DNA of 64,000 nt from Sphingobacterium thalpophilum (GTDB taxonomy: Bacteria > Bacteroidota > Bacteroidia > Sphingobacteriales > Sphingobacteriaceae). The notes beneath the pieces are model-generated. The model saw only the letters and a list, made by a program, of their open reading frames with translations. It had not been told where the DNA came from and did not search any database. Made by a program: the position numbers and the translations under genes. This document shows, one piece after another, positions 5,850-26,858 of the stretch; positions within the stretch are counted from its first letter, which is position 1, and each line of letters starts with the position of its first letter. Where the stretch lies: the NCBI RefSeq assembly GCF_038396785.1, contig NZ_CP151087.1:4526001-4590000 (forward strand), written 5' to 3'.

Positions 5850-5947
5850 ACTTTTAGTTATAAGTGTTTGTTTCGACCTTATTTAGTAATCAATCAGATA
5901 GAAGGTCCGTCTAATTTTTTTGAAAAAACACGTTCAATGCAGGTTAA

Positions 5948-5965
5948 TTCCAAAAAAACTGCCAA
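5948..5965 (-). promoter_or_regulatory. Sigma54-like promoter of the ABC permease
   Basis: Read on the minus strand: TTGGCAG, then a T run, then TTTTGGAA. The GG of the -24 element is followed after 10 nt by GG where sigma54 promoters have GC, so the match is good at -24 and imperfect at -12. It lies about 100 bp before the permease start. Confidence 0.45.
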
Positions 5966-6016
5966 ATGGCTAATATGTTTATAGTCAGTGTTTTATGTAG
6001 TGTTTTTGTTGTGTAA

Positions 6017-6055
6017 GTGTTTGGATTCGAACACTTTGTGTTCATATTCGAACAT
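6017..6055. promoter_or_regulatory. Two tandem operator-like inverted repeats
   Basis: GTGTTTGGATTCGAACAC (6017-6034) and GTGTTCATATTCGAACAT (6038-6055) share the pattern GTGTTC-N6-GAACAC. Their centres are 21 bp apart, two turns of the helix, so two dimers would bind the same face. They sit 50-90 bp upstream of the sigma54-like promoter, the usual place for an enhancer-binding activator. Confidence 0.55.
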
Positions 6056-6225
6056 CCTGAGGTCTGGAAATCAAAAAAAGTTTTATTTACAGGATGGTGC
6101 CTTATGTGGGTAAGGAATATGGAGAATAACATTGGGTTTGATTTTGTAAAGGAGGGTACTACGTCATATGAGAAAACAGTATGTCGCAATGTAACAACTT
6201 ATTAGTTTTATTTTGCGTTTTTCAT

Positions 6226-6256
6226 TTGCAAATAATTTGTAAGAAGCGTATATTTG
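6226..6256 (+). promoter_or_regulatory. Promoter of tRNA-Pro copy 2
   Basis: TTG (6226-6228), 20 nt, TATATTTG (6249-6256), a full match to the Bacteroidota consensus. The spacer sequence differs from that of copies 1 and 3. Confidence 0.8.
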
Positions 6257-6285
6257 TGCCACACAAAACAAAGGTGATACCTTTT

Positions 6286-6359
6286 CGGGGTGTAGCGTAG
6301 CCCGGTATCGCGCCACATTTGGGATGTGGAGGTCGTAGGTTCGAATCCTGCCACCCCGA
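6286..6359 (+). tRNA. tRNA-Pro (TGG), copy 2
   Basis: Identical in sequence to copy 1, including the preceding leader. CCA is not encoded. Confidence 0.95.
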
Positions 6360-6362
6360 CTT

Positions 6363-6393
6363 AAAAGCTCTAACGAAAGTTAGGGCTTTTTTT
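6363..6393 (+). terminator. Terminator after tRNA-Pro copy 2
   Basis: AAGCTCTAAC / GTTAGGGCTT hairpin with a T run. It is a slightly diverged copy of the terminator after copy 1 and reappears next to the tRNA fragments at 46.4 and 48.0 kb. Confidence 0.8.
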
Positions 6394-6496
6394 GTTTCAG
6401 GGCAAGGAGCGAACCTAGGGCCTTTAGGGGACCAAGCAGACTTCTTGGGGGAATATCAAAAATTTCCTAGTTTAGCATCTTTAATACAGATATCCC

Positions 6497-6850
6497 TTGC
6501 AAGACGCCGAACGTAAATTACTATCGCTATTGATGCCCGAAGGGCTTTTAGAATACTTTCAGATTTTAGAAGTCGATCAGGTTGACAATCAACTCCACAT
6601 TTATTTAGACGAGCTTAATATTTCTCCAACAGGCTATGAGAACAGCAAGCTGGAGTCAAAGGGCTTTATGCCTTCTACAGAGATTTCCGACTTTCCCATT
6701 AGAGGTCAGAAAGTTACATTACATATCCGCCGTCGTCGCTGGACAGTCTTAGATACGGGACAGATTATCACAAGAGATTGGAACCTGGTCCGTGAAGGTA
6801 CCCGAATGACAACTGAATTCGGGCTTTTTTTAAAGAAGATATTTGGATAA
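6497..6850 (+). CDS. ISAon1 transposase, N-terminal region protein
   Basis: The 117-residue protein (LLSLLMPEGLLEYFQILEVDQ..., FPIRGQKVTLHIRRRRW, ITRDWNLV) matches the N-terminal-region protein annotated with ISAon1 elements. The start used is a TTG at 6497; an upstream start cannot be excluded. Its last 8 nt overlap the second frame, which lies in +1 relative to it. A basic patch HIRRRRW suggests DNA binding at the element ends. The same arrangement is kept in copy 2. Confidence 0.8.
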   Translation: MQDAERKLLSLLMPEGLLEYFQILEVDQVDNQLHIYLDELNISPTGYENSKLESKGFMPSTEISDFPIRGQKVTLHIRRRRWTVLDTGQIITRDWNLVREGTRMTTEFGLFLKKIFG

Positions 6851-7826
6851 CTATCCTGTAAGTGCCCAATTGGTAGGATTATTCTTCCAGATGGACGGCA
6901 AGCAACTTCAGGATCAATACAAGAACCATCTCAGTGACTTCCATGATTGGGGCCAAAAGCCACATGCAGAGCGATGGACTCTTTTTCCCGGGAATATCTC
7001 CGAACGCTTGAGCATCGATGAGACCAGTTTTAGCAACGGTGAATTATATACCATTGTTAGCAGTAAATCGGCAAAAGGGCGTAAAGGGACGATTTTGGCA
7101 ACTATCAGGGGCACAAAGGCTGAGGATATCATGACTGTTCTTGAGCGAATACCTTTACGTTCAAGGAATAAGGTAAAGGAGGTGACCATGGATATGGCAC
7201 CGAACATGGCTAAGGCAATCCGTAGATGTTTCAGGAATGCCAGGCGTGTGGTCGATCGGTTCCATGTCCAAAAGTTAGCTTACGATGCAGTGCAGGAACT
7301 CCGTATCAGGTATCGTTGGGAAGTATTGGATGCGGAAAGCAAGAAGATAATGGAATCTCGAAAGCGAGGAATCCCATATGAACCCGAGTTGTTACCTAAT
7401 GGAGACACGCTCAAACAGCTACTGGCTAGATCCAGACACCTCTTGTTCAAGCATCCAGGCCGATGGTCCGAAAACCAGAAACACCGAGCTGAACAGTTGT
7501 TCATACGGTTTCCCAAACTAAAGCTCGCTTATGACCTTGGAATTGCCCTGGGTGACATATTCAATAAATGCAGAGACAAAAAGATAGCATTTACCAAGCT
7601 GGGACTGTGGCATAATCAGGTTGAGAATGCGGGCATCGCCTCTTTTGAGAGCGTAGCAAGATCCATTGCGGCACATCATCAATATATCCTACACTACTTC
7701 GACAACAGAAGCACCAATGCTTCAGCAGAATCTTTCAATGCAAAGCTCAAAGCTTTCAGGAGTGTCTTTCGTGGCGTAAGAGACACCACATTCTTCTTAT
7801 ATAGAGTAATGAAACTGTATGCTTAA
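6843..7826 (+). CDS. ISAon1 transposase, DDE domain (ISL3-like)
   Basis: The 327-residue frame holds the catalytic domain of ISL3-type transposases: LSIDETSFSNGELYTIV (first Asp), TMDMAPNMAKAIRRCFRNARRVVDRFHVQKLAYDAV (second Asp region), and FDNRSTNASAESFNAKLKAFRS (final Glu). It opens at a TTG overlapping the stop of the first frame (ATTTGGATAA). The real product may be a fusion made by +1 frameshifting, or a second protein made by coupled re-initiation; the sequence does not decide. No internal damage. Confidence 0.85.
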   Translation: MDNYPVSAQLVGLFFQMDGKQLQDQYKNHLSDFHDWGQKPHAERWTLFPGNISERLSIDETSFSNGELYTIVSSKSAKGRKGTILATIRGTKAEDIMTVLERIPLRSRNKVKEVTMDMAPNMAKAIRRCFRNARRVVDRFHVQKLAYDAVQELRIRYRWEVLDAESKKIMESRKRGIPYEPELLPNGDTLKQLLARSRHLLFKHPGRWSENQKHRAEQLFIRFPKLKLAYDLGIALGDIFNKCRDKKIAFTKLGLWHNQVENAGIASFESVARSIAAHHQYILHYFDNRSTNASAESFNAKLKAFRSVFRGVRDTTFFLYRVMKLYA

Positions 7827-8068
7827 AAACTTTACCCCCCAAACTTTCGGTATGATCCCCTTTAGGATATTATTAAGTTTGATCCGGAGTAGACTTAGTC
7901 AGGGCCAGCCAATCCCACTATTTTAGCTACCTAACCGATAACTTCGCTATTCAGGGCAGTCATGCGGGTTTTTATAATTATTTTGGATCGAAATCGACAT
8001 GTGTTTTAAATGTTTTGTAAATTATTTTACAATAAATCAGCTTGTTAGGTGTTATGTGAAGAATATTT

Positions 8069-8099
8069 TTGAAAAAAACATATTTTTAGTTTACTTTTG
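8069..8099 (+). promoter_or_regulatory. Promoter of tRNA-Pro copy 3
   Basis: TTG (8069-8071), 20 nt, TACTTTTG (8092-8099), a full consensus match with a spacer unrelated to those of copies 1 and 2. Confidence 0.8.
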
Positions 8100-8128
8100 T
8101 GCCACACAAAACAAAGGTGATACCTTTT

Positions 8129-8202
8129 CGGGGTGTAGCGTAGCCCGGTATCGCGCCACATTTGGGATGTGGAGGTCGTAGGTTCGAATCCTGCCACCCC
8201 GA
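8129..8202 (+). tRNA. tRNA-Pro (TGG), copy 3
   Basis: Same 74 nt as copies 1 and 2. Unlike them it is directly followed by CCA, so the 3' end is encoded. It is the last intact copy before the mobile zone. Confidence 0.95.
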
Positions 8203-8225
8203 CCAAGAAGCCTACAAAGGCGGTC

Positions 8226-8260
8226 AAAACCCCTCTAATCGTATGATTAGAGGGGTTTTT
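8226..8260 (+). terminator. Terminator after tRNA-Pro copy 3
   Basis: Strong hairpin AACCCCTCTAATC / GATTAGAGGGGTT followed by T-rich sequence. It is unrelated to the terminator after copies 1 and 2. Confidence 0.85.
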
Positions 8261-8304
8261 CTTTTTTTCTTACCCCAATTTGTTCAAGTAAAACCAAAGA
8301 AAAT

Positions 8305-8322
8305 GAGACCTATTCGGTTACC
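8305..8322 (+). repeat. Candidate left attachment core (attL)
   Basis: GAGACCTATTCGGTTACC occurs here and again, exactly, at 46329-46346. It lies between the tRNA-Pro terminator and the N-terminus of an integrase gene, as expected for an attachment site. A degenerate inverted copy 22 nt further on could be an arm site. Function is inferred from position and repetition. Confidence 0.5.
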
Positions 8323-8514
8323 CATTTTCTATACCTAATTTTGGGTCACCGAAATAGGTTCAAATATCTAAAAATCAGCTTTTTGTGCTTGTTTGTTTTG
8401 ATGCTTTTTGTGGTCGTTTGATACGCGGTTTCTACCTGTTAGTGACCTGTTACATTATCAAATCCAAGCAGATAGCATCAAAACACGGATATGCAACCAT
8501 TAAAGTTAGTTGAT

Positions 8515-8874
8515 ATGAAAACACAAAATTGCACATTCGGGGTTATCTTTTACCTCAAGAAGCAGAAAACAACAGCACAGGGAACAGCACCTATCTATGC
8601 AAGGGTAACGGTGAACGGCAAACGTACGGAAATATCCGTCAAACGTTCGGTAGCTGTTTTGGGATGGGATGCAAAAAAGGGCTTGGCAAAGGGAAGCCGT
8701 GAGGAAACGGCGGAACTTAACCGATTTCTTGCCCGCTTCAAGGCAAAAATCATTGACGCCTACCAAGAACTGGTATTGTCGGGAAATACGGTTGACGGCG
8801 CGGTCATCCGTGAACGGGTAACGGGGTCTGCACAGTCGGGGCGGACACTCGGCAGTCTGGAATTGCAACTTAAA
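8515..8874 (+). pseudogene. Tyrosine integrase, N-terminal fragment
   Basis: From ATG 8515 the frame encodes MKTQNCTFGVIFYLKKQKTT..., APIYARVTVNGKRTEISVKRSV, and an alpha-helical stretch to RERVTGSAQSGRTLGSLELQL. This is the arm-type DNA-binding domain plus the start of the SAM-like core-binding domain of Bacteroidota integrases. The catalytic domain is missing: the frame runs into the left end of an IS3 element. About 120 of the usual 400 or so residues remain. It was probably the integrase of the mobilizable element whose mob genes follow. Confidence 0.8.
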
Positions 8875-8886
8875 AGTGGAGACTTT

Positions 8887-9717
8887 TTATGCTGCTAATT
8901 TCTGTTTTGATCGGTAGAACATTTCCATTTCATTTGGAGTTCTATATCCAATCGCAGAATGTATCCTTTTGGCGTGGTAAAATCCTTCAATGTACCTGAA
9001 CACCTCTAGCTTTGCAATCTCCCTGTTGACAAATTTATGATGGTATATACATTCTGTTTTTAGTGTTTTGAAAAAGCTTTCAGCTACAGCGTTATCCCAG
9101 CAGTTACCTTTACGGCTCATGCTCTGTTTTATATCACTTTTACTTAGCATAAGCTTAAACTCATCACATGCATATTGGATCCCTCTGTCGGAATGAAATA
9201 TCAGCCCCGGTTTTATTCCCCTATTTTTTATAGCCATTGCCAATGCCTTAACCGTGGTATTACCTGCAGTCATGTCATTACTAAATGACCATCCAACAAC
9301 TTTCCGATCAGCCAGATCAATAACCGTAGTAAGGTAAGTCCACCCGGAAGCAGTCTTTATATAGGTAATATCACCAACCCATTTTTGGGATAATGCACCC
9401 GCTGAAAAATCTCTACCGAGGAGATTTTCCGCTACCCCGTACTTATGGCTGGAATCGGTAGTCACTTTATATTTCCTTCGTATCTTGCTCCTTAAATTCA
9501 ATTTCTTCATTAAGCGCGCTACATAGGACCTGGATACCTGCTTGTTCTTTTTCTTCAGTTCCTGGGTAATGCGGGGGCTTCCGTATATCTGATGGCTGTT
9601 CTCATATTCCTGTTTTATCAGAGCAGACAGTTCCGCGGTCCTTTTCTCCCGCATACTTTGTGGTCTGATAAGCCACTTATAAAATCCGCTGCTGCTAACT
9701 TTGATCGTATGGCACAT
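8887..9717 (-). CDS. IS3 transposase OrfB (DDE)
   Basis: Integrase-core transposase: WVGDITYIKTASGWTYLTTVIDLADRKVVGWSF carries the first Asp, FHSDRGIQYACDEFKLML the second, and KGNCWDNAVAESFFKTLKTE the Glu. The N-terminus has the HTH_21 region (LSALIKQEYENSHQIYGSPRITQEL). The frame is open upstream of the first ATG (QGRLRKYEFIREHINTFPVEKMCHTIK), overlapping the end of orfA in -1, so the active protein is most likely an OrfAB fusion made by -1 frameshifting, as is known for IS3 elements. Confidence 0.93.
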   Translation of the reverse strand: MCHTIKVSSSGFYKWLIRPQSMREKRTAELSALIKQEYENSHQIYGSPRITQELKKKNKQVSRSYVARLMKKLNLRSKIRRKYKVTTDSSHKYGVAENLLGRDFSAGALSQKWVGDITYIKTASGWTYLTTVIDLADRKVVGWSFSNDMTAGNTTVKALAMAIKNRGIKPGLIFHSDRGIQYACDEFKLMLSKSDIKQSMSRKGNCWDNAVAESFFKTLKTECIYHHKFVNREIAKLEVFRYIEGFYHAKRIHSAIGYRTPNEMEMFYRSKQKLAA

Positions 9718-14385: not shown

Positions 14386-14560
14386 AAAATCTCAATTATG
14401 TTAGTCTTATAAACTTAAGTGGATATTCTGGTAATGTTGACCCCTTTCTGGCAATATTGACCCCCTGATTTTTGGTTTACAGGATTGCCTACAAATGGCC
14501 TGACAATATTACTTCTTTTTTCTTAGACTTTCACCTGTGTTATGGAAAGCTTTCCATAAA

Positions 14561-14598
14561 AAAGGCTATGACAACAATATGGATATGTAAAGTCCATT
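14561..14598 (+). repeat. RIT left terminal inverted repeat
   Basis: 38 bp, perfect complement of 18021-18058; mismatches begin at both the next outer and the next inner base. Confidence 0.9.
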
Positions 14599-14660
14599 GA
14601 AAGGTACATTGATTCACAGAGCATTGCGTTACGGCTTTACATTTGGACTTTACATAATCG

Positions 14661-15713
14661 TTATTTCTTACCCAGCCCTTTCAGCCAAGTTATCAAGTTA
14701 CTGTTATCGATCCATTCTCCGGTAACCTGGTTAGGTGTAAGGCATTCCGATGCCTGTTCTATAGCCTCTCTTTTCTGTTTTGAGTCGGCCCTTGCATATA
14801 TCTCTGTGGTCTGGACCGAGGTATGCCCCAAAAGATCCCTTATCCAAACCAGATTTACACCAGATTGCAACAGGTGGATTGCGCGACTATGCCTTAACTG
14901 ATGGCAACTGGTAACCTCGGGAATAAGATTAGAATCGTATATACGGGCCATATCTGCATATTTCTTTAAGATATAGGTTATACCGGCTCTGGTGAGTTTA
15001 TTCCCCGCGCTATTACAAAAGATCGGTCTTTTTATATCAATCTCGTAGTCAACATTGTACCTTTCCATATACTTCTTGAGTATTACGACGACATGCTCAG
15101 AAAGCGGTACTATTCTCACTTTTCTTCCTTTTCCATATACCTTGATCGAGTATGGCTGATACTGTATTCGCATTGACTCTACCGTCAGGTCAGCCAGTTC
15201 CTGTACCCGACAACCTGTATCATACATCAAAGCAAGGACCGTAAGGTGTCTCAGCCCTTGATAAGATGCACTATCCGGTTGTTCAAGTAGAAGCTTTATT
15301 CCTTCTTTTGTAAAGTATACCGGGGTAGGATGTGCTTTTTTCAGATTTCCAATCTTCAGGACTTTTTGCCACTGATCCAGGTATTCGATGCTATCATACT
15401 GAAGATATGCTACAAAGGAATGTATCGCTGCCAATCTATTATTGCGCGTCGCAATACTGTTTCCCTGCCGCTCAATCAGCCATCGTAGATATTCAACCAC
15501 ATTATCCCTATTAATATCTGACAAAATCGCATTTTCAATCTTTATCTGTTTCTCATCCCTCAAGAAGGAAAAAAAGGAGACAAAACCATCGCGGTACGCG
15601 GATATGGTATTGGGGCTGACGTTTCGCTCGTGCGGAAGATACACACCAAGGAAACCTGTGATATATTTTGCTATGTTATTCGTTGCCATCTTTTTGGGGA
15701 TATATAAATTCAT
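14661..15713 (-). CDS. Tyrosine recombinase, third RIT gene (RitC-like)
   Basis: The 350-residue protein has a SAM-like N-terminal core-binding domain (LGVYLPHERNVSPNTISAYRDGFVSFFSFL) and a complete catalytic domain: Arg in YDTGCRVQELADL, HQLRHSRAIHLL, LGHTSVQTTEIYARAD with the nucleophilic Tyr. In RIT elements the three recombinases are all thought to be needed for movement. Its start overlaps the end of the second gene by 38 nt, so the three are co-translated. Frame is intact. Confidence 0.9.
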   Translation of the reverse strand: MNLYIPKKMATNNIAKYITGFLGVYLPHERNVSPNTISAYRDGFVSFFSFLRDEKQIKIENAILSDINRDNVVEYLRWLIERQGNSIATRNNRLAAIHSFVAYLQYDSIEYLDQWQKVLKIGNLKKAHPTPVYFTKEGIKLLLEQPDSASYQGLRHLTVLALMYDTGCRVQELADLTVESMRIQYQPYSIKVYGKGRKVRIVPLSEHVVVILKKYMERYNVDYEIDIKRPIFCNSAGNKLTRAGITYILKKYADMARIYDSNLIPEVTSCHQLRHSRAIHLLQSGVNLVWIRDLLGHTSVQTTEIYARADSKQKREAIEQASECLTPNQVTGEWIDNSNLITWLKGLGKK

Positions 15714-16731
15714 TGAGGGAAATACACATTTCCAATAGTTCGGGATATTCGTTGCAGGTGAGTCTCACATATTCTTCGGTGGATGTAAGAGACTTGTGTC
15801 CCAGACAAGCAGCCAGTAATGGAAGGGCAGTGTACACATCAAGCCCTTTTCTTATCATTTTTGCAAGAGAATGCGTTGCCATGGTGTGTCTTATATCATG
15901 CACCCGAGGACCAAAGCATTCACCTTTATATGCAATTCCACATTTCGTATATACCTTTTTGAACCAGTTGTATGCGTTGGCGGAAGACACGGCTGTACCA
16001 TTCAATTTAATGAAGAATGGACGTTCGCTATCAGTAACGCCTTTTACGGGGAGCATGCTCCTGTAATGTAAATATTTCAGAAGGGCCTCCTTTAAAGAGC
16101 TGCATATGGGAACCAGGCGTTCTTCTCCATTTTTAGTATTGCCCCAAGTGCCAACCCTTAATACATTCCTGTCGGGATCCACATCCTTGTTTCGCAGCGA
16201 GGTTGCTTCTGTGATTCTTAGGCCTGTACTATATAAAAGTCGAAAAAGACAGGGTAGGGATATAATTGGGTCATCTTTTCGATGGCTTCCTCGCTGAAGC
16301 CCGTCAGATTCCCGGAATATGGCCAGCATCTGCTCTTCAGTGAAGATATAGGGTACAAAACCACGATCGTTCGTACATTTTGGCAAAGGCATGATATATG
16401 ATTTAACCCCGTGCTCATTCATGTATTTCGCCAGTTGGGCCAGACGGGAGCATTTTCCATAGAATGTTCTACTACAATCATTTTCCCTGGACTTTGCCCA
16501 GGCACCTATCAGATCTTTCGTGATAACTGGATTTGATAAACCATATATTATGGTGAACTCGTCAAACTCTTTGTAAGTCCATTTGGTTGATAGCACGGTG
16601 GACCCACAGGATTCTTTGATCCGGATCAGGGCTTTCATATAAGGAGCCAATACTCCCCGATAGTCAAATGGATCAGTCATAGAACCACCCTCCTCTCTGC
16701 GTATAAAAGCAATCGCTGGATTCCGGAACAT
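15676..16731 (-). CDS. Tyrosine recombinase, second RIT gene (RitB-like)
   Basis: The 351-residue protein has catalytic residues in LLYSTGLRITEATSLR (Arg), HDIRHTMATHSL (His-x-x-Arg), LGHKSLTSTEEYVRLT (His and Tyr). Between the two last motifs it carries the longer linker MIRKGLDVYTALPLLAACLGH, which is typical of one branch of the trio. It overlaps the first gene by 59 nt and the third by 38 nt. Confidence 0.9.
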   Translation of the reverse strand: MFRNPAIAFIRREEGGSMTDPFDYRGVLAPYMKALIRIKESCGSTVLSTKWTYKEFDEFTIIYGLSNPVITKDLIGAWAKSRENDCSRTFYGKCSRLAQLAKYMNEHGVKSYIMPLPKCTNDRGFVPYIFTEEQMLAIFRESDGLQRGSHRKDDPIISLPCLFRLLYSTGLRITEATSLRNKDVDPDRNVLRVGTWGNTKNGEERLVPICSSLKEALLKYLHYRSMLPVKGVTDSERPFFIKLNGTAVSSANAYNWFKKVYTKCGIAYKGECFGPRVHDIRHTMATHSLAKMIRKGLDVYTALPLLAACLGHKSLTSTEEYVRLTCNEYPELLEMCISLNEFIYPQKDGNE

Positions 16732-17905
16732 CTAGTACGCATCCCAGCATATGTGACAGGTCTATCCGGACATAGGTTCTTGTTGTATCTGCTTCGGAGT
16801 GACCCAGTGTTTCCGATATAATTGAGATTGGCGTGGATTTGTCCAGCATTCTTTGCGCCAGACTGAATCTCAATGCATGCCCTCCATGATGCCTGTTCCC
16901 GAATTCGATTCCAGAAGACTTAAAAACAATTAAGATGGCTCCATGAACCGCTCCTCCATTAAGTGCCCCATATGGAGGACGACAACTTAAAAACACTTTG
17001 TCTGACATGGATTTTGGGCGTGCATACCGAACATAGTCGATAATGGCATTACCAACTATAGGTAAAAGTGGAAGTGTCAATGGATTTCCGGTCTTATATT
17101 GCACAAGCGTTATTTTATTGGTTTCCCAATTTATGTCGCTAAAACTCAAATTGGCTATATCCGAGACGCGCAGCCCTAGACGGGAGCATAATAATAGCAT
17201 AGCATAGTTGCGTTTTCCAATATTGCTTGAACGGGAAATCGATGTCTCTATCTTCTGTACTTCATCTGGAGCATAGAACGAAGGGGCCTTTACACGCTTG
17301 ATTTTTTTACCAAGTGATTTTAGCATATAGGAATAGTCCTTTGCAATTATATTTTCGCGGAAGAGAAATAATAGAAAGCGGCGCGTAGTATCAATATACT
17401 CCTTCTGTTGATATTCGCGACTCTCAACATACCTCACTATAGCTTCTTCGGTTATTCCCGAACGATTGTCTATTCCCAGTTCGAGTAGATATTCTATAAA
17501 GTTGCTCATTGTTTTTCTGTAACGCTGAAGTGTCTTCTTCTCATTTAAGCCCAGGGATTTCAAGTATTCAAGATACTGAATAGCGGCGGCGCCGATGTCA
17601 CCCCGTAAGGGATGTTGTACCACATGCTGTCTTCTCCCTCCCAGATTGCTATCCAACAAAACATGGGTCAACACTTCAATACTTTTAATAAGGTCGCGAT
17701 GATGGAATGTAACGTTGAAACCATCACGGCACGTCAGCATATATTCGTTGCCGACGTTTTCGTCGTAGTCAACCAAGCCTCTTGAGTGCATATAAACAAG
17801 GATGCCTTTCTTCCACAACCAATTATAGGTGTAGATACGACTGCCTGAATATCTGGCCTCTTTTAAAAGTTGGTTAGTACGTTCAATAAGATTTTGAATT
17901 TCCAT
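16673..17905 (-). CDS. Tyrosine recombinase, first RIT gene (RitA-like)
   Basis: The 410-residue protein has an extra N-terminal region (residues 1-110) before the SAM-like domain (IQYLEYLKSLGLNEKKTLQRYRKTMSNFIEYLLE). Catalytic motifs: LLLCSRLGLRVSDIANLSF (Arg), HHGGHALRFSLAQRML (His-x-x-Arg), LGHSEADTTRTYVRID (His, Tyr). It is the promoter-proximal gene of the trio, starting 116 bp inside the right terminal repeat. Confidence 0.9.
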   Translation of the reverse strand: MEIQNLIERTNQLLKEARYSGSRIYTYNWLWKKGILVYMHSRGLVDYDENVGNEYMLTCRDGFNVTFHHRDLIKSIEVLTHVLLDSNLGGRRQHVVQHPLRGDIGAAAIQYLEYLKSLGLNEKKTLQRYRKTMSNFIEYLLELGIDNRSGITEEAIVRYVESREYQQKEYIDTTRRFLLFLFRENIIAKDYSYMLKSLGKKIKRVKAPSFYAPDEVQKIETSISRSSNIGKRNYAMLLLCSRLGLRVSDIANLSFSDINWETNKITLVQYKTGNPLTLPLLPIVGNAIIDYVRYARPKSMSDKVFLSCRPPYGALNGGAVHGAILIVFKSSGIEFGNRHHGGHALRFSLAQRMLDKSTPISIISETLGHSEADTTRTYVRIDLSHMLGCVLDVPESSDCFYTQRGGWFYD

Positions 17906-18020
17906 AACTTTTACTATTTATGTTGATATATTGTAATATGCAACACTAACGTTATGGAAAGCAATTATGTGTAGTCGTATTAATAATTGGCTATAAATGA
18001 ATTTTGAGAAGAGATCTGAT

Positions 18021-18058
18021 AATGGACTTTACATATCCATATTGTTGTCATAGCCTTT
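18021..18058 (-). repeat. RIT right terminal inverted repeat
   Basis: 38 bp, perfect complement of 14561-14598. It also supplies the accidental new C-terminus and stop codon (YDNNMDM) of the truncated istB frame. Confidence 0.9.
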
Positions 18059-18741
18059 AAGTTCAATCCGATGGGATGTGTGAACTATCCGGTCCAGAAT
18101 AGCATCTGATAAAGTATCATCCCCGATCACAGCATGCCAACTGGCCACAGGTAGTTGGCTTGCAATGATCGTTGAACATTTGGCGTGTCTGTCCTCTATG
18201 ATTTCCATCAGGTCAATTCTTTGCTGTTGGTCGAGGTTTACCAGACCGAAGTCATTATAAGCAGTTCTACCTTGGAAAGTTTCATAAGAAGCTTGTGGAT
18301 CGATCCATCCAACCTGGCCATTTTTGTTCTCAAAAGCAATTTTTGCATACTGAAGTAAGCGACTCTCTTACCTTGGGCACAAGCCCTGAGCCCCAGAGCA
18401 GACGCCATGAAAGATTTTCCGCAGCCTGTTGCACCAACGATAATGATCGGCTCGGCCCTTTCGATATATTGGCCTGTGGCCAAGTCCATCAATTGGATCT
18501 TGTCGATCCCCCTGGATGGATCCATATTGATCTCTTCAAGAGAGGCCTGGTAACGGAAGGCTGCATTCTTCTTTAACCTCTCGAACCGCAGTTCGAAGCG
18601 ACTGTCAGATTCGGCCTGCAGCAACAGGGTAAGTCCTTCTTCCAGAGTTAGTTTTCCGATCTGCCGTGTTTCTTTCATCGCTTTCCATTGACGCTCCATT
18701 CCATGGAAGCGGAGCGTGTTCAATTGTTGTTCTACATTCAT
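18029..18741 (-). pseudogene. istB: IstB-like helper ATPase of IS21-1, frameshifted and truncated
   Basis: IstB is the AAA+ helper of IS21 transposition. The frame reads MNVEQQLNTLRFHGMERQWKAMKE..., Walker A GATGCGKSFMASAL, then KVELLIM and a premature stop near 18238. In another frame the sequence resumes as DFGLVNLDQQQRIDLMEIIEDRHAKCSTIIASQLPV...HRIELKG. The expected LLILDDFGL motif (Walker B) is damaged by a loss of about 4 bases near 18255. The last codons are then replaced by the RIT terminal repeat. Both lesions make it non-functional. Confidence 0.85.
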
Positions 18742-18767
18742 CTGTTTCTAAGTTTTATAGTTCATTT

Positions 18768-20025
18768 TTATGAGTAATAGGATGCTCCCCTGATATTTTC
18801 ATGTTGTGGCAATTGCTTGTTATCCGCCCCCTCTTGCTGTTGCTCCACCATTCCGTTTTCCAATATTCTTTGTAGGAACTTATAGGACAGCATGTCGTTC
18901 CTTAAGGCAATTTCACATGCTTTGAAGAATGTTTCCCCATAGCTACGGTGCAGCCTAAAGAGTCCTTCGCACGTTCTGTAGAGTTGTTCCGGATATCGGT
19001 CGCTTTGTCCAAAGACCCGAACGACCAGTAAGTGAAAGTCCGGATGGATATCCAGAGCGCGCTTGATATAATAATCTGGCGAACGGGTGCCATACTGCTG
19101 GTGCTTGGAAGCAAGGTGTTCGGGATGCGTCGAGTATTTGTTGGCAACAAAACTCCTGCTGTGCAGGGCTACCTGTACGTTCTCAATATAGATGTGGACT
19201 AAACGCTCAGTATAGACCACTAGGGCCTGTTTGCCAATATGGACATAAGGAACGCTATAGGAATGCCTGTCCCTTTTGAGATGTACATGTCCATTGGTTC
19301 CCACTTTGAGGGTCGTATAATATTTCATCGAAAAGCGGTCCCGAGGAAGTGGTCTGAGACTGGACAGCTCGTTGCTGAGAAACCGTTCCTGACGGCAATA
19401 GTTCCTGTCCTGCATTCTGGTCTGGTTCAATCTCTCGATACACTCTCCGATAGCAAGGTTGAGTGAGGGGAGATCAAAAAACTGCCTGTTGCGTAACCGG
19501 GCAAATACCTGGGTATAGATGATCTTCACATGGTTCTCTACGGCACTTTTATCCCGGGGCCTGGCAGGCCTTGCAGGCACTACGACCGTATCATAATGGT
19601 TTGCCAGATCTTCCATGGACCTGTTGATCTCTGGTTCATACCGATCGGTTCGTATGACGGCTGACTTGAGGTTGTCCGGGACAATCGCTCTGGGGACCCC
19701 TCCAAGAAACTGCAGGCAGCAGTCCAGTGCATAGAGAAAATCGGGGGATCGCTGACTGGGAACGGCCATGGCAAAACAATAGTTGGAATATGGCAGGCAC
19801 GCAACAAATATCTCGCATAAAATGATCTCACCAGTCTCATGGTCGATGTAACCCAGCTTCTTGCCGGAGAAATCGATGAAAAGCTTGTCACCGGGTTCGT
19901 GGTCCAGTATCATGCTTCCATCGCGACGTGAGACCAGTAATTGCTTTAGATGGAAACAGAACTGGGCATAGCTATATCCCTGTGGATGAGCTACTAAATA
20001 CTCTTCCCACAAAAGTCTCCGGTTT
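18768..20025 (-). pseudogene. istA: IstA-like transposase of IS21-1, C-terminal part
   Basis: The longest frame gives 414 residues from WEEYLVAHPQGYSYAQFCFHLKQL onward, including the DDE domain (HEPGDKLFIDFSGKKLGYID, VPDNLKSAV, RPRDKSAVENHVK) and the C-terminal region common to IS21. The N-terminal 100 residues are encoded separately at 22632-22927. The break lies at a GGTGTA that is present on both sides: GGTGTAAACCGG here and GGTGTATGCATAATCCGG there, the mark of an insertion with a target duplication of about 7 bp (TACACCT on the plus strand). Confidence 0.88.
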
Positions 20026-20086
20026 ACACCTGTATATTCCGTTGATATGGGTTCTTCGTCAATTTTGGTGAAAGTATGTTAAATAA

Positions 20087-20554
20087 TTACACTTTATAAA
20101 CTAAACCTTTTTTCTTTTCAAACACAATTCCAACCTTTTCGAGCAAGTTATAGACTTGTGCCTTTTGATATGCTAAGCCATATTCTTTATCAATCCATTG
20201 AGCCAAAAGAGGGCCTGTCCACTTTACTGATTGATATCCATGATCCGAGGGTTTTTCGTTTATGACCAAGTTTTTGATTCTTTCGAGTTGTTCGTTTGAT
20301 AAATTGCTCCGTCTACCGCGCCCTTTCTTATCTTTTAATCCTTCAATACCTTCTTTTTCAAATCTATGAACCCAATTTGTTATCTGCTTGAAGCTGATAT
20401 TATGTAGTTCAGACAACCGTCTGCTCGAATAGCCTAATGCAACAAGATATACCATGTATAGCCTTATACCAACGGTATAAGCATCATTTGCATTTAATAA
20501 TTTCTTTATCTCTGTTGCGTCTGATCGCTGAATTTGTAAGACTGATTTTCCCAC
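20087..20554 (-). CDS. HTH accessory protein of the ISL3 element
   Basis: The 155-residue protein starts at GTG 20554. Residues 25-80 form an HTH like the N-terminus of IS630 transposases (YMVYLVALGYSSRRLSELHNISFKQITNWVHRFEKEGIEGLKDKKGRGRR). Residues 85-150 form a second winged-helix-like part (SNEQLERIKNLVINEKPSDHGYQSVKWTGPLLAQWIDKEYGLAYQKAQVYNLLEKVG). There is no DDE catalytic domain. It is transcribed away from the transposase across a 69-bp gap, so it may repress or guide transposition. A passenger of this kind is not part of the classic single-gene ISL3 layout. Confidence 0.8.
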   Translation of the reverse strand: MGKSVLQIQRSDATEIKKLLNANDAYTVGIRLYMVYLVALGYSSRRLSELHNISFKQITNWVHRFEKEGIEGLKDKKGRGRRSNLSNEQLERIKNLVINEKPSDHGYQSVKWTGPLLAQWIDKEYGLAYQKAQVYNLLEKVGIVFEKKKGLVYKV

Positions 20555-20623
20555 TGTAATTTATTTTTTCTAAACAACAAATATATAAATTATTATGTGT
20601 AATTTAATATTATACTTTTAGTT

Positions 20624-22246
20624 ATGATTCCAGAATTTGTACTTCCTCCCAATTTACAGTTAAAAGCTGAAACAACGTACACCTCTCTAGGAGAGCTTTA
20701 TATTAGTACGTACGCTTATCAAAAACACTCAACATGCCCTATTTGTGGCATTACGAGTGATAGGGTTCATAGTAGATATTTCCGAACTCTTTTAGACCTT
20801 CCTGTTTCCGGATATTTAGTAAAAATCAAGCTCAGGGCTAGGAAGTATTTTTGTGATAATTCAGTCTGTCATCGAAAGGTTTTTACTGAACGCTTCGATT
20901 GTGAAATCAGGCCATATTATAGAAGAATGATTCGTTCAAATGAACTTCTTTTTAAAATGGGGCTTGAATTGGGAGGAATTAGAGGTTCAGCAATTAGTCG
21001 CTATGTTGGACTGCCGGTTAGCTCCTCCACTATGTTAAGAGTGATTCAAGGAGTAGATATACAACCTAAGGCTTTGACATCTGGGGTAATTGGCGTAGAT
21101 GATTGGGCATTCAAAAAAGGAAGTACCTACGGAACCGTTATTGTGGATTTAGAACGGAAAGAAGTGATAGATTTACTTCCGGATCGTGAATCGGATACGC
21201 TGGCAGAGTGGCTGAAGAATCATCCAGAAATAAAAGTAGTATCCAGAGATCGCTATGGCCCATATGCTTTGGGTATAAAAACAGGGGCCCCTGATGCCAT
21301 TCAGGTAGCCGACCGCTTTCACCTAATTATGAACTTAGGGGAAGCAGCTAAAAAAGTCTTACAATCAAAAGCAAAAGAATTGAAGGAAATATTTAAGCTT
21401 TATAATGATCCCAAAAGGAAAGAACCTACATTAACGGAAGTTACCGGGCCTGTTGAAGCAAATTTAGAAGTTCTAGCAACGATTTCTACAGCAAACATTG
21501 GTGCACATAAACAATATCTATTCGACAAGGTTAAAGAGCTATATGCCAATGGTATTACGCTGAGACAAATTGCCAGAATTACAAACCTGGATCGAAAAAC
21601 AGTCGCAAGGTATGTATCCGTGGAAAAACTTGAGAAAAGACAGTCCAGAAACTCCACCAACCTGGAATCCTTCATTAATTATCTTTTGAGCGAAGAGAAC
21701 CACGGAAAAACATATAGAGAACTACATAACACTATTGTTCAGATGGGATTCAATGGTAAGTATACCCAGTTTTGCCACAAGATGAATGAAGTTTATAATA
21801 TGCCGGGGCTTAGTAGAATGAAATATAAGCCGCAGGTGGTGGTAGCAAAAACTTGGTCGCCAACCAAATTATCCTTAATGCTCTATAGGGAGTCAAAACA
21901 CCTTAAGGAAGATGATAAAGAATTTTTAGAATTATTATTTGAAAAGCTTCCTCAAATAAAACAACTGGAGCAGTTGATAAAGGACTTTAAACAATTGTTT
22001 CTTATCAAGAAAGACGGAATGTTACAAAAATGGATTCAGGAGGCATCAACATCAGAGTGCGGGCTTAAAAATTTCGCTAAAAACCTTTTAAGGGACTATG
22101 AAGCAGTGAATAATGCAGTAGTAAGAACAGTAAGTAACGGCCAGGTTGAGGGACAAGTGAATCGAATAAAAAATATAAAAAGAAAAATGTACGGAAGGGC
22201 AGGATTTCAGCTATTGAGGAAAATGATACTTGCAAAATCAGCATAA
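20624..22246 (+). CDS. ISL3-family transposase (copy 1)
   Basis: The 540-residue transposase has an N-terminal zinc-finger-like part (CPICGITSDRVHSRYFRTLLDLPV, CDNSVCHRKVFTERF) and the ISL3 DDE domain: IGVDDWAFKKGSTYGTVIVDLERKEVIDLLPDRESDTLAEWL, VVSRDRYGPYALGIKTGAPDAIQVADRFHLIMNLGEA, with the Glu in NGQVEGQVNRIKNIKRKMYGRAGF. An inserted HTH (ITLRQIARITNLDRKTVARYVSV, about 310-340) lies inside the catalytic domain. Intact. Confidence 0.95.
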   Translation: MIPEFVLPPNLQLKAETTYTSLGELYISTYAYQKHSTCPICGITSDRVHSRYFRTLLDLPVSGYLVKIKLRARKYFCDNSVCHRKVFTERFDCEIRPYYRRMIRSNELLFKMGLELGGIRGSAISRYVGLPVSSSTMLRVIQGVDIQPKALTSGVIGVDDWAFKKGSTYGTVIVDLERKEVIDLLPDRESDTLAEWLKNHPEIKVVSRDRYGPYALGIKTGAPDAIQVADRFHLIMNLGEAAKKVLQSKAKELKEIFKLYNDPKRKEPTLTEVTGPVEANLEVLATISTANIGAHKQYLFDKVKELYANGITLRQIARITNLDRKTVARYVSVEKLEKRQSRNSTNLESFINYLLSEENHGKTYRELHNTIVQMGFNGKYTQFCHKMNEVYNMPGLSRMKYKPQVVVAKTWSPTKLSLMLYRESKHLKEDDKEFLELLFEKLPQIKQLEQLIKDFKQLFLIKKDGMLQKWIQEASTSECGLKNFAKNLLRDYEAVNNAVVRTVSNGQVEGQVNRIKNIKRKMYGRAGFQLLRKMILAKSA

Positions 22247-22353
22247 TTCACCAAAATTGACGAAGAACCACTTTGGAGCGGAATGGTGGTGTAGTATGGT
22301 TCGGAATATGCAGGCAATAAAACAAAAAGCACAGACAAGACCACTATCCTACT

Positions 22354-22638
22354 GGGTGCATATGCTCCGGAATCGTTATATTCTCCGTCCCAAAAGCAGG
22401 TGTAGCTGTCAAATCTGGGTGCATTTGCTCTGGAATCAACCCTGAGCCGCATCAAGATCCGAAACATGGGTGCATATGCTCCGGAATCAGGCGAACCATC
22501 GACCGTATCTAACCAAAACCAGAGGTCCAATCAACCGTTTTGGGTGCATATCTGCCGGAATGTCCGGGATAAACCCCTAATTTCAAGCTGGATCAGATCG
22601 CCGATTTTGGGTGCATATGCTCCGGATTATGCATACAC
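22354..22638. repeat. Array of five spaced 20-bp direct repeats
   Basis: Copies of GGGTGCATATGCTCCGGAAT start at 22354, 22417 (TTTGCTCTGG variant), 22468, 22542 (ATCTGCCGG variant) and 22619. Spacing is 63, 51, 74 and 77 bp and the intervening sequences are unrelated. This fits transposase-binding repeats of an IS21-type end and not a CRISPR array. Confidence 0.75.
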
Positions 22639-22927
22639 CTATTCGTGATAGTTCTTTTTCAAAATAAGGAAGCCTTTCTTTTAGATACTCGAAACGCTCG
22701 TCCCGATAGGCGGGGTTCCCCGATCTGAGCATCCGCTCAAGAACTGGATCTTCCAGCTCCAGTATCCTTTCCAGAGATAGATTCAGGTCCGTTACCTTCT
22801 TTAGATAGGACTTTACCGTATTCTTGCTGATGGAAAGATGACGGGCTATTGTTTTAATGGGATAATTCTCCCTGTGCAATCGTATTAACTGTTTGATCTG
22901 ACTCATGGGTCTTGATTTACCGGCCAT
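22632..22927 (-). pseudogene. istA: IstA-like transposase of IS21-1, N-terminal part
   Basis: From ATG 22927: MAGKSRPMSQIKQLIRLHRENYPIKTIARHLSISKNTVKSYLKKVTDLN..., the HTH region of IS21 transposases, followed by ERFEYLKERLPYFEKELSRIGV at the break. The rest of the protein is at 18768-20025. The intact IstA of IS21-2 (514 residues) gives the expected length. Confidence 0.85.
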
Positions 22928-23052
22928 TGGAATATATCGATTAGGTCTAGCCCAAATAAACCAAAAAACAGAAACCCATGAAAAATGAGTGTATAAGGGG
23001 TCAACATCGTCCAGAATAAAATGACCATATCTCGAAAGAGGGGTCAGCTTGC

Positions 23053-24763
23053 GGTTCTTCCGCACTTTTGGTGGTAATACCATCATATTTGTCTTCAATT
23101 AGCGTTCATATTTTAATGAATGCATCAAAACTTGTTTTTTCGGACGATGGTGATAACTTTAGGATTATATCAGTAGATAACCAGCAAGATGTACTGGTAG
23201 TTTATGTGCAGAGTACTACCCGAAGTGCTGTCTGCCCAAACTGCTGCATCACTTCGAAAAGAATCCACAGCTATTACACCCGCAAGATCGCAGACCTTCC
23301 TGTCTTTGGTAAAACTTCCAGAATTATTCTTCGCTCTCGTAAATTTTATTGTCATCAAGACGAATGTCCGTTCAAAATATTCACCGAGAGGTTCGAGAGT
23401 CATTTCAGGCCATATAAACGGAGGACTGAGCGTCTGGAAAGTAAGATCAGACAACTTGGGCTTCTTGCCGGAGGAAGGCCTGCTCAGCGGATTTGTACCA
23501 TATTGTCGATACCCACTAGCGATACGACTATACTACGGTTGATTGAAAAAAGCGATTTTTCACCAGCAAAAGGTGTAACCGCCATTGGCGTAGACGATTG
23601 GGCTTACAAAAAAAGGAAAAGTTACGGTAGTATTTTGGTCAATCTCCACACAGGGAAAGTGATAGATCTATTACCAGACCGTGAACAGGAGACATTGCGT
23701 AAATGGCTACAGGAACGTCCAGAGATTGAAGTAATGAGCCGGGATAGATACAGTAACTATCAAAAAGCAATTACTTTGGGTGCTCCCCAATCTATCCAGG
23801 TCACCGATCGTTGGCACTTGTTGAAAAATTTAAGTGAGGCGGTACAGAAAGTTTTGATTAGGCATTACAGCAAAGCCACAGCTTTGTTGGCCAATAAGCA
23901 GTTGCGGGTTGACGATCAACAAATAGCTGAAAATCAAAGCTCACTATCTGAAAACAGAAGCTCTCCGGATTCAGCTCATGGCGGGATCCGCTTAAAGCGG
24001 TTTGAGCAACTGAAGGAATTACAGAAAAAAGGATATTCCATACGTGCCATGGCACGGCATCTGTGCATGCACAGACAAACCGTCAAAAACTATCTGGACA
24101 TGGAGACCTTGCCCCGGAAATCTCAATGCAAGATTAATCCGCTTGAAAAATTCTTTACGCATATAAAAAAGCGTATGGAGGAAGAGCCGAGCATATTGAT
24201 CACCACATTGTGGCAGGAGCTCAGAACCCAAGGATATAAGGGAGCCTATTCAACTTTCTCAGAAGGCTTGAAATTCTATGGGATCCGAGTGGGCAAAAAA
24301 GCTGGGTTCACTAAAGAATTACCGAATCATGGTGCAGCAACTTTTAAACCATCATCAGCGGCGATATGGTTTCTGTCAGATCAACAAAATCTGTGGGATG
24401 ACCAACGGAATATCATCCGCGAATTATGCAAATCCTCCAAAGAGCTGAATAAGACTTTTATCCTAGTGCAATCCTTCCGTAAAATAATGGCTGAGAAGTC
24501 GGGCGATACAAAATTGAGGGAGTGGATCGAGAAATCAAGCACCTCGGGACTAAAAGAAATAGCATCATTCGCAAAAGGACTGCTCGCCGATTGCCCCGCT
24601 GTTGAAAATGCGCTCACCTTACCATGGAGTAATGGTCCCGTGGAAGGAAACGTGAACCGACTGAAAATGATTAAGAGGCAGATGTATGGTAGAGCGGGGT
24701 TTGACTTATTGAGGAAACGTGTATTATACGCTCCGTCTTGACCACCAAAAGTGGGGAAGAACC
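23053..24763 (+). mobile_element. Second type of ISL3-family element (ISL3-b)
   Basis: The termini GGTTCTTCCGCACTTTTGG and the complement of CCAAAAGTGGGGAAGAACC define 1711 bp. It sits inside the right terminal repeats of IS21-1. AGCTTGC on the left and AGCTTAC on the right look like a target duplication with one later change. Its single gene is a transposase about as long as that of the other ISL3 type but clearly different in sequence. Confidence 0.88.
23116..24741 (+). CDS. ISL3-family transposase (ISL3-b)
   Basis: From ATG 23116, 541 residues: zinc-finger-like N-terminus (CPNCCITSKRIHSYYTRKIADLPV, CHQDECPFKIFTERF), then IGVDDWAYKKRKSYGSILVNLHTGKVIDLLPDREQETLRKWL, VMSRDRYSNYQKAITLGAPQSIQVTDRWHLLKNLSEA, an inserted HTH (YSIRAMARHLCMHRQTVKNYLDM), and the final NGPVEGNVNRLKMIKRQMYGRAGF with the catalytic Glu. 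A longer frame opens upstream at 23068, but the ATG fits the family start better. Intact. Confidence 0.94.
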   Translation: MNASKLVFSDDGDNFRIISVDNQQDVLVVYVQSTTRSAVCPNCCITSKRIHSYYTRKIADLPVFGKTSRIILRSRKFYCHQDECPFKIFTERFESHFRPYKRRTERLESKIRQLGLLAGGRPAQRICTILSIPTSDTTILRLIEKSDFSPAKGVTAIGVDDWAYKKRKSYGSILVNLHTGKVIDLLPDREQETLRKWLQERPEIEVMSRDRYSNYQKAITLGAPQSIQVTDRWHLLKNLSEAVQKVLIRHYSKATALLANKQLRVDDQQIAENQSSLSENRSSPDSAHGGIRLKRFEQLKELQKKGYSIRAMARHLCMHRQTVKNYLDMETLPRKSQCKINPLEKFFTHIKKRMEEEPSILITTLWQELRTQGYKGAYSTFSEGLKFYGIRVGKKAGFTKELPNHGAATFKPSSAAIWFLSDQQNLWDDQRNIIRELCKSSKELNKTFILVQSFRKIMAEKSGDTKLREWIEKSSTSGLKEIASFAKGLLADCPAVENALTLPWSNGPVEGNVNRLKMIKRQMYGRAGFDLLRKRVLYAPS

Positions 24764-24783
24764 AGCTTACTCCAGAATATCCA

Positions 24784-24978
24784 ATTACTGAAGAAGTTGG
24801 GTCCAGGTCCAAATTTCATTTGTTGTGTATTGCGTACAAGCCATTTATATCCTGAGAAGTTTATTATTCTATCTTCAGTTTCGCTCTTTGATATTACTCT
24901 TTTCATAGTACATTGGCTCAATGTGAATAATACTATTGACATAAAAAAAAGGGTTACAATATTCTTCTTCACATGCAT
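24784..24978 (-). pseudogene. GH16-like lipoprotein, N-terminal fragment
   Basis: The minus-strand frame begins MHVKKNIVTLFFMSIVLFTLSQC, a lipoprotein signal peptide with the lipobox Cys, followed by FSGYKWLVRNTQQMKFGPGPNFFSN. GY-W-VRN...GPGPN-FS is the start of the beta-glucanase-like (GH16 / concanavalin A-like) domain found in polysaccharide loci. The frame then enters the right end of IS21-1 and the remaining 200 or so residues are lost; they are not found left of the element. It is the last gene of the minus-strand polysaccharide cluster. Confidence 0.65.
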
Positions 24979-25036
24979 TACATTCTATTAAACAAAAAAT
25001 TCATATAGTTATACCCAGCCCGAAACAAGGCAATAA

Positions 25037-26858
25037 CTAATTACTAAAAAAATTATGATATACTGAATCTGGTAATAGTGCACTGTTAGATATCAATTTT
25101 TGATTCTTCCTTTTAAAAATATCAAATCGCTCTTTAAGCATGGTTGAAGTAGATTTGCTCATATCACTCTCCTCACTAAGATGGTCATTAATTTTAAAAA
25201 GTTGATTATTTGAAATATGATATCCTGCATATACAAAATCTTCTTGTTGAGTTTTACTTTGCATAATTGGGATTCCGTAACCATTAGCAGAGGCACCTAC
25301 ATCTAATCCTTTACCATTCCAGGTTATTTGTAAAGGAGTTTTTAATCCATATTGCGTGCGGTAGTAAGCCATTAACGAGGGGGCTAGATCAAAGTGACTG
25401 ACTATGTTTTTAAACGATTTGCTTGATTTTATTAACGGTGAATATATAATTAGAGGAACGTGGTATCTATCTAGTTTGTTTTGTAATACAATTTCAGGCA
25501 TACTATGATCTCCTGTAATGACAAAAATAGTATTTGAAAAATCTGATCTTTTTTGATAGGTGTCAAAGAAAGTTTTTAACGCGTGGTCTATGTTCATTAC
25601 CGAGGCTAGTTGCTTTTTGTATGAAATAGCCAATTTTGCATTATCTGCACTCAGATTTAGCTCTTTAATTCTAATGTCAACCTGTTTATCAAAATATTCT
25701 TGATCATTAATAAGAAATGGGCTGTGGGTTGACAAAGTTAGTACCGTATTCATATAAGGTTTATTTGCATCTAAGGTTGTCTTGAGCACTTTATCTAATA
25801 CAGCTTGGTCGTCATAACCCCAACTTTCCCCGTTTTGAGCAGGCAATTTTTTATATGGTTCTTCAAAAGATGTCAAATCGATTAAATTATCCACCTTATT
25901 GAACTCCATATATTTTTTCATATTATCAAATGAGGCATCTCCTCCGTAAAAAAATCCTGTTTCAAAACCATTGTGTTTAAATATGTTATTAAGATTAAAG
26001 TGAAGTGGATATTCGTTTTGTTCTAAAAATCCATTCCGTGAGAAAGGAAGAGAACCTAGAATGGATGGTAATACAGAGAAAGTTCTTCCTGAGGTACTTA
26101 GGCAATTCTCCCAGTTAAGAGATTTGTCCCTTAAAGAATGCAGAAATGGTGTAAAATTACCAATGTAACCATTGGGAGAGCTATATGCATTCCCTAGGCC
26201 TTCAATGATTAAAAATACTAAATTGGGTGGGCGATCAGCTTTGTTAAAGTAACTTCCTAGAAAGTCTTTTGTTTCTTCTGATCTCAGAAAGGGATACATC
26301 CCAAAATCGTTTATGTTTTCTTTATTGCTGTCGTTCCATTTATTGGCCCATTCGAAGTGATCATCCATATAATTCTTAAAATTCGTGTTTAAGAAATATC
26401 TCCATTTACTTACTGAGGCGTGCGAATAGAATTCATTTTTATCATCCACATTAAAGGTAAATTTAACGGGTAAAATGACTAATATCAATCCTAAAATAAT
26501 GAGTATAGCTCCTGCATATGCGTTTTTTAATTTGAATCGACTAATAAAAGTTAATGGAGCAGCGGCAAACAATATAATTAAAAGAAGAAATGCTATATTT
26601 TTTAAGTTTAACATTCCACTGCTTTTAATAATGTGTTGAATTTCCTCATAACTGTAAAAGAAAAGGTCAGCGCCTAACAAGTTCTGTGATTCAGTGAAAT
26701 AAAGGAAAAGAACAACTTGAAAAAGTATGAATATTGAAAAGGTAGATATTATAAATATATTTAAGTAATTAAACCCAATATATACTAACAATACATATAC
26801 TAAGCTGCATGCTGCTAGAAACTGTAATATAAAAACCAGATTATCAATAAATAAATTG
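25037..26858 (-). pseudogene. LTA-synthase-like sulfatase half of a glycosyltransferase-sulfatase gene
   Basis: The frame (584 residues from the first usable start at 26791, but open up to the IS1595 end) has several N-terminal membrane helices and then an alkaline-phosphatase-superfamily domain: PPNLVFLIIEGLGNAYSS, TPFLHSLRDKSLNWENCLSTSGRTFSVLPSILGSLP (nucleophile region), STHSPFLI, VITGDHSMPEI (metal ligands), YHVPLIIYSP. Such enzymes move phosphoglycerol or phosphoethanolamine onto surface polymers. Upstream the frame continues without stop (LFIDNLVFILQFLAACSLVYVL...) to 26858, where IS1595 has inserted, and matches the glycosyltransferase frame on the other side. The original gene therefore coded for both parts. 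Confidence 0.85.

Follow-up and report, generated by a model that had tools for sequence, protein, structure and literature searches.

IS21 elements in the complete genome of Sphingobacterium thalpophilum probably serve as a target for other mobile elements that recognise IS21 by sequence, with RIT and ISL3 elements both inserting site-specifically. The window, the whole stretch of 64,000 nucleotides that was analysed, lies in a single 5.75-Mb contig, which carries an entire nest of such elements inside one IS21 copy, here called IS21-B (table). The RIT uses the same istB codon repeatedly and ISL3 insertions recur at the same positions, in both orientations, and the pile-up is therefore attributed to site-specific targeting. 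The observations that carry this are the reuse of identical sites, the occurrence of both orientations, the empty and filled versions of the ISL3 sites, and the symmetry of the RIT junction, all of which can be read in the sequence.

IS21-B is a decayed member of the IS21 family. Its istA and istB carry IS21 family domains, and it has TG..CA ends with multiple terminal repeats, in agreement with the ends at 14420 and 24783 that had been proposed in an earlier, sequence-only reading of this DNA. Three insertions break it: a RIT in istB, an IS21-type remnant in istA, and ISL3-b in the right end repeats. Removal of the inserts in silico leaves 2517 bp and yields IstA as one reading frame, whereas an intact IstB was not recovered from IS21-B in this way, owing to the frameshift in the 5' part of istB; the excision check thus succeeded for IstA and ended, for IstB, in the very outcome that the sequence-only reading had named as speaking against it. 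The same reading had claimed that the order of events could be reconstructed. This has to be given up, since only the chain from interrupted gene to IS21, IS21 remnant and ISL3-a is ordered; the other two insertions, RIT and ISL3-b, are siblings of the remnant, and because all three lie side by side their relative order in IS21-B is not readable.

No target duplication of 4–8 bp is present at IS21-B, where the flanks read CTTAAG and ATTACT, and the remainder of the interrupted gene does not lie on the left side of the element. Together, the lack of the gene's remainder and of an IS21 duplication makes a subsequent deletion or rearrangement likely, and the missing duplication is consistent with such an event. 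On the right, positions 24783–26473 of the window are 88.7% identical to genome G129, with the similarity ending at the IS21 end, and the G129 counterpart of the truncated gene is an intact and syntenic frame. Truncation of a gene by IS21 is thereby borne out, but its description as GH16-like is weak: Pfam gave zero matches for the fragment or for the intact G129 homologue, and an NCBIfam beta-glucanase match is below the cutoff (E 2.6e-5).

Table. Features of the IS21-B nest and of a second ISL3-a copy in the window
Feature	Positions	Strand	Basis or remark
IS21-B	14420–24783	-	ends TGGATATTCTGG (14420) and CCAGAATATCCA (24783), multiple terminal repeats
Overlap CACAGG (istB strand) at distal RIT junction	14534–14539	-	followed by istB 3' end (GESLRKKK)
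20-bp palindrome TTATGGAAAGCTTTCCATAA, centre of predicted RIT circle junction	14540–14559		junction comparison
Left 38-bp RIT inverted repeat	14561–14598	+	repeat search
RIT tyrosine recombinase, 350 aa	14661–15713	-	PF00589, E 6.3e-30
RIT tyrosine recombinase, 351 aa, overlaps both neighbours	15676–16731	-	PF00589, E 4.4e-20
RIT tyrosine recombinase, 410 aa	16673–17905	-	PF00589, E 1.5e-21
Right 38-bp RIT inverted repeat, in frame as new IstB tail GYDNNMDM-stop	18021–18058	-	repeat and frame
istB (AAA+ ATPase), 5' part	18059–18741	-	frameshifted near 18250
istA (transposase), 3' part	18768–20024	-	domain match and alignment
TACACC, first copy of 6-bp target duplication of remnant	20025–20030		flank comparison
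IS21-type remnant inside istA, ends and terminal repeat array (22350–22630)	20031–22633		repeats
ISL3-a, 2220 bp, inverted repeats GGTTCTTCGTCAATTTTGGTGAA	20050–22269	+	repeats
155-aa HTH protein carried by ISL3-a	20087–20554	-	domain search
ISL3-a transposase, 540 aa, internal IstA-like HTH pair (residues 305–390)	20624–22246	+	domain search
istA, 5' part	22634–22925	-	in-silico restoration
TACACC, second copy of duplication	22634–22639		flank comparison
ISL3-b (23053–24763) with AGCTTGC / AGCTTAC duplication, in IS21 end repeats	23046–24770		flanks
ISL3-b transposase, 557 aa, internal IstA-like HTH pair (residues 316–399)	23068–24741	+	domain search
Interrupted gene, first 65 codons	24784–24978	-	intact 247-aa homologue in genome G129
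Second ISL3-a copy, 8-bp duplication AGCATCTC	34042–36261	-	in end repeat of another IS21 (istB at 36358–37062)

RIT, IS21 and ISL3 are known families, and to our knowledge no target rule has been described for RITs, which have been known since about 2009. A RIT (recombinase in trio) has three adjacent, overlapping tyrosine recombinase genes, spans about 3.5 kb, and ends in inverted repeats that a palindrome overlaps (PMC3414803). The element in istB has all of these features and genes homologous to those of other trios, with a core of 3498 bp (14561–18058) bounded by perfect 38-bp inverted repeats, and it sits between the codons HRIEL(K)G and GESLRKKK, as had been claimed. Its two overlap copies are not identical (AAAGG and ACAGG), so that the recombined overlap was heterologous. 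GInt elements likewise accept mismatches in the overlap (PMC5385486).

The genome contains five RIT copies with 0–1 mismatch over 3498 bp, and all five occupy the same istB codon (HRIELKG / GES), three in one orientation relative to istB and two in the other. The presence of identical elements in several copies is an indirect hint of excision or transposition activity. The palindrome TTATGGAAAGCTTTCCATAA is always istB-distal, whichever way the RIT is oriented. The RIT-bearing IS21s are of three kinds, about 69% alike where comparable: IS21-A with three copies, IS21-B in the window, and a fragment (L050). Four further IS21s, of type C with the motif LTGESYR, are without a RIT. No empty ELKGES[LM]R site exists in this genome; across the order, 42 of 300 genomes carry such empty sites. 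A second RIT lineage is found in istA of L048, an IS21-A copy; a RIT of genome G278 occupies the same position in istA and matches it at 99.8% identity over 3500 bp.

The repeated use of one codon might instead go back to a single RIT insertion in an ancestral IS21, spread by IS21 transposition and gene conversion, with the two orientations generated by inversion between the 38-bp repeats. The IS21-A copies L049 and L051 have IS21-type 5-bp duplications (AAAGT and TCGAT) and an ISL3-b insertion in common, and L048, L049 and L051 have flanks of mosaic appearance, all of which fits this explanation. Outside the RIT, however, L049 and L051 differ at 23 of 4287 positions, compared with 1 of 3498 within it (p = 1.4e-5). 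The RITs are less diverged than their hosts and would therefore have arrived after the hosts diverged, although gene conversion is possible; this comparison favours later, separate arrivals, which homogenisation of the RIT copies by gene conversion could mimic. Furthermore, the hosts differ by up to about 31% yet the RITs are identical, the fragment L050 and IS21-B are different IS21s, and the same site is used by RITs of other families of bacteria: those of Chryseobacterium JUb7, Arenibacter hampyeongensis and genome G153 are 75–80% identical, occupy the same istB codon, and again differ in orientation. A single ancestral insertion is thus improbable, and we favour repeated integration at the codon. 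Some of the variation in orientation may nonetheless come from inversion at these repeats of 38 bp.

Phylogenetically, the istB RITs (the window element and its relatives) form one fully supported clade together with one Parabacteroides RIT of unmapped target, and two RITs in a DUF932 gene fall in another clade with two RITs of unmapped target. More distant RITs lie in IS21 istA, in an IS66 transposase gene, in a RadC/JAB gene (at HNHPSG) and, twice, in the DUF932 gene, and on plasmids the genes interrupted by RITs are those of a strawberry-notch helicase and of a group II intron reverse transcriptase. Within each of these other lineages a single site is used, in istA, IS66, radC, DUF932 or the plasmid helicase gene; in the strawberry-notch lineage, RITs have entered that site either way round, and the palindrome keeps to the same side. 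The palindrome is 3' of the target gene in the Bacteroidota targets, but its side is fixed per lineage only, and a general rule placing it 3' was rejected, since in the strawberry-notch lineage and in R. albus it lies on the 5' side. Arrangements equivalent to those of the nest, found in independent genomes, also bear on the assembly. Several near-identical repeats lie close together and could have been joined wrongly, but the flanks differ from copy to copy, intact target duplications are present at several of the copies, and the genome is one contig, which makes misassembly an exceedingly improbable origin of the nest.

The sensor-II motif GESYR (GESxR) follows immediately on the istB site. 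By alignment, Arg237 of IS5376 IstB is the arginine of GESYR, with a one-residue offset in the chain numbering (PMC11208146), and the RIT site in istA lies five codons upstream of the position that corresponds in the alignment to the catalytic E233 of IS5376 IstA (PMC10122671); both residues thus have counterparts in the IS21s studied here. With the RIT in place, IstB has a short terminal tail that comes from the RIT repeat, and its sensor-II arginine is lost, probably along with its function. The possibility that the RIT leaves IstB functional was rejected, because the insertion takes away the sensor-II arginine motif (PMC11208146).

A circle junction was predicted by joining the element ends through the shared overlap. 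The predicted junction consists of inverted repeat, 20–22-bp palindrome and inverted repeat, and reads CCTTTATTATGGAAAGCTTTCCATAATAAAGG for the window element. It is a near-palindrome of 90–98 bp, with a self-complementarity of 0.80–1.00 over 45 pairs in 13 RITs, and two equivalent crossover cores flank its centre. The palindromic character follows partly from the inverted repeats themselves. We infer that the RIT integrates at the one conserved istB codon before GESxR by means of its three tyrosine recombinases, from a circular intermediate that would carry this nearly perfect palindromic junction. Because either of the equivalent cores may recombine with the target, the element could enter in either orientation with the central palindrome on the same side of the target. 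Each RIT lineage would have a codon target of its own, in many cases within a gene that belongs to a different mobile element. The symmetrical junction may also explain the pairing of three recombinases with a palindrome, and with a predicted istB attachment site, natural empty and filled versions of it, and an explicit circle junction, RIT integration becomes directly testable.

Single RIT insertions have been reported before in radC, IS66 tnpA and a Tn6049-type transposase gene (PMC2864759, PMC3414803). A 2023 survey lists RIT target specificity as not tested and states that RIT movement has not been reproduced in the laboratory (PMC10214605). In a literature search that covered sources other than the main RIT paper (Ricker 2013), we found no RIT targets in istB or istA, no specificity of a lineage for one codon, no use of one site in both orientations, and no symmetrical RIT circle junction. 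GInt and SE elements are similar in having several tyrosine recombinases, site-specific integration and a heterologous overlap of about 6 nt, but differ in having a fourth essential gene and cargo; a palindromic attachment junction does not feature in the passages covered (PMC5385486, PMC10214605).

The remnant in istA has IS21-like ends, and no istA or istB of its own was found. That it holds an ISL3 element, as stated in the sequence-only reading, is correct, and a 6-bp duplication (TACACC) is present at its two edges. Likewise, AGCTTGC and AGCTTAC bracket ISL3-b in the right terminal repeats and make up a duplication of 7 bp in which one position differs. The transposases of ISL3-a and ISL3-b both hit the ISL3 model NF033550 (E 2.7e-95 for ISL3-a and 2.8e-103 for ISL3-b), and GG..CC inverted repeats with 7–8-bp duplications are found for ISL3-b and two ISL3-a copies. 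ISL3-a occupies the same place in two IS21-C ends (L056 and L058) in opposite orientations, with 8-bp duplications, and two other IS21-C copies (L055 and L057) have this site empty. ISL3-b is placed likewise in IS21-A (7-bp duplication) and IS21-B (6 of 7 bp). The insertion point of both is about 12 bp from the IS21 tip, and we propose that the two elements would generally insert at this distance within IS21 terminal repeats, producing duplications of 7–8 bp. Relatives in the order have perfect duplications at IS21-type ends (L164, L173, L185 and L186). An IS21-like terminus is present in 24 of 57 flanks, compared with 0 of 34 for a 330-aa ISL3 family of this genome that is abundant and unrelated, and at 0.8% of random positions. 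No report of ISL3 insertion in IS21 ends was found in the literature search.

These data bear on whether the nest is a random pile-up, tolerated since IS21 copies are dispensable. IS insertions free of cost to the cell and the many IS copies present would accommodate such a view, but the chance of five of five RITs landing even in any istB is about 2e-15, identical ISL3 sites are used repeatedly and in both orientations, and the 330-aa family lacks the IS21 association, so that randomness is scarcely credible. The nesting and most junctions described in the sequence-only reading therefore stand, but its picture of an accidental pile-up with a readable order does not, given the RIT five times at one istB codon and ISL3-a and ISL3-b repeatedly in IS21 end repeats.

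In both ISL3 transposases, the N-terminal part of the IS21 transposase model is matched inside the DDE domain. When compared with solved structures, the ISL3-b segment has its sole matches in IS5376 IstA residues 6–99 (E 2.4e-8), and the ISL3-a segment has the same structures as best match. This region is the HTH-1/HTH-2 pair that binds the IS21 end repeats (PMC10122671), and it is tempting to regard it as a device by which ISL3 might target IS21. A special adaptation of IS21-targeting ISL3 was nevertheless rejected, since the pair is common to other long ISL3 members: it is present in 8 of 8 long ISL3 transposases sampled outside the order, in other phyla, and so may serve the element's own tips. 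A structure model of the ISL3-b transposase, built from two sequences, was poor (mean pLDDT 38).

At about ten loci, among them that of ISL3-a at 20050, the element is flanked left and right by IS21-like tips and lacks an ISL3-type duplication; such loci make up about half of the informative ISL3 loci. In one of them (L170), a 6-bp duplication, TTTAGG, lies outside the double tips. Double tips also surround long ISL3 elements in Runella, Priestia, Klebsiella, E. coli and Microvirga, where most of the elements have tips of 19–21 bp with TG..CA at either side. For E. coli, an IS21-like tip is where the repeated unit starts; the tips therefore travel with the element there, and a tip beside an ISL3 is by itself no proof of targeting. 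The assumption that every such tip marks a targeted insertion was rejected after this boundary test. In two E. coli copies compared, the core has opposite orientations relative to the two tips. Double tips may have arisen when ISL3 copies at the two ends of a single IS21 recombined, or may belong to the element proper. Viral contigs searched for ISL3 relatives yielded none. For ISL3 only, an alternative is that the outer ends of the long elements resemble IS21 tips and are bound by their own HTH pair, with insertion in IS21 ends as a by-product. The HTH pair in other phyla, the tips on both sides of most of the elements sampled there and the E. coli boundary accord with this; in the present genome, however, the GG..CC ends make 7–8-bp duplications in genuine IS21 ends, of which empty versions exist. 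We consider it nearly an even proposition, and as views it and IS21-end targeting overlap.

A wider and more tentative reading, to which we would assign somewhat less than an even chance, is that RITs are homing parasites, each lineage dedicated to one conserved and often catalytic codon in a gene of other mobile DNA and integrating by means of a fully symmetrical site, and that long ISL3 elements independently find IS21 ends by their IstA-like module, giving rise to IS21-tip/ISL3 chimaeras that spread across phyla. The nest and its counterparts also present one family of mobile elements as being curbed by others that strike at its conserved motifs. The IS21s described here share istA and istB, terminal repeats, TG..CA ends and 5–6-bp duplications with the IS5376 model (PMC10122671, PMC11208146), but are mostly broken by parasites and serve as target. 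ISL3-a and ISL3-b have the DDE_Tnp_ISL3 domain, zinc ribbon, GG..CC ends and 7–8-bp duplications of their family, and differ in that they insert in IS21 terminal repeats. Targeting of another transposon's ends by an IS has a precedent in IS4321, of the IS1111 group, which inserts in the ends of Tn21. IS4321 similarly occupies a fixed place in another element's terminal repeat, but differs in transposase family and in the mode of recognition.

The three copies of IS21-A, an IS21 kind of the Sphingobacterium thalpophilum genome in which every copy carries a RIT (the element with three tyrosine recombinase genes) in istB, are mosaic. Copy L048 has different partners on its two flanks: next to one end of the RIT it is identical to L051, and next to the opposite end to L049, which suggests that the copies recombined with one another via the RIT. 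L048 (genome 132000–151000) is also host to two RITs, since a second, distinct lineage lies in its istA (L048 positions ~5613–9113), and each of the two occupies its own lineage-specific codon.

Two draft contigs, L101 of Parabacteroides distasonis and L129 (G056:C39), each consist of 3498 bases that make up one RIT and nothing else, as expected from assembly collapse of a multicopy repeat.

The HTH protein carried by the ISL3 element within the IS21-type remnant, ISL3-a, is conserved at 75–83% in several relatives (L173, L175, L177, L179, and L053), and was not detected in the other tested ISL3 loci (L164, L174, L180, L183–L185, and L191).

Protein carried by ISL3-a
Feature	Window position	Length
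Divergent HTH_32 protein	20087–20554	155 aa

At locus L170, an ISL3 has IS21-like tips on both sides and a 6-bp duplication of IS21 size (TTTAGG) outside them, as if ISL3 and tips had moved as a single IS21-type unit. Between the Escherichia coli ISEc38-type copies L237 and L241, the ISL3 core is reversed relative to its two differing 21-bp tips. The 330-aa ISL3-like transposase, with near-identical full-length copies in about 44 places of the S. thalpophilum genome, represents a recent burst with no relation to IS21 ends.
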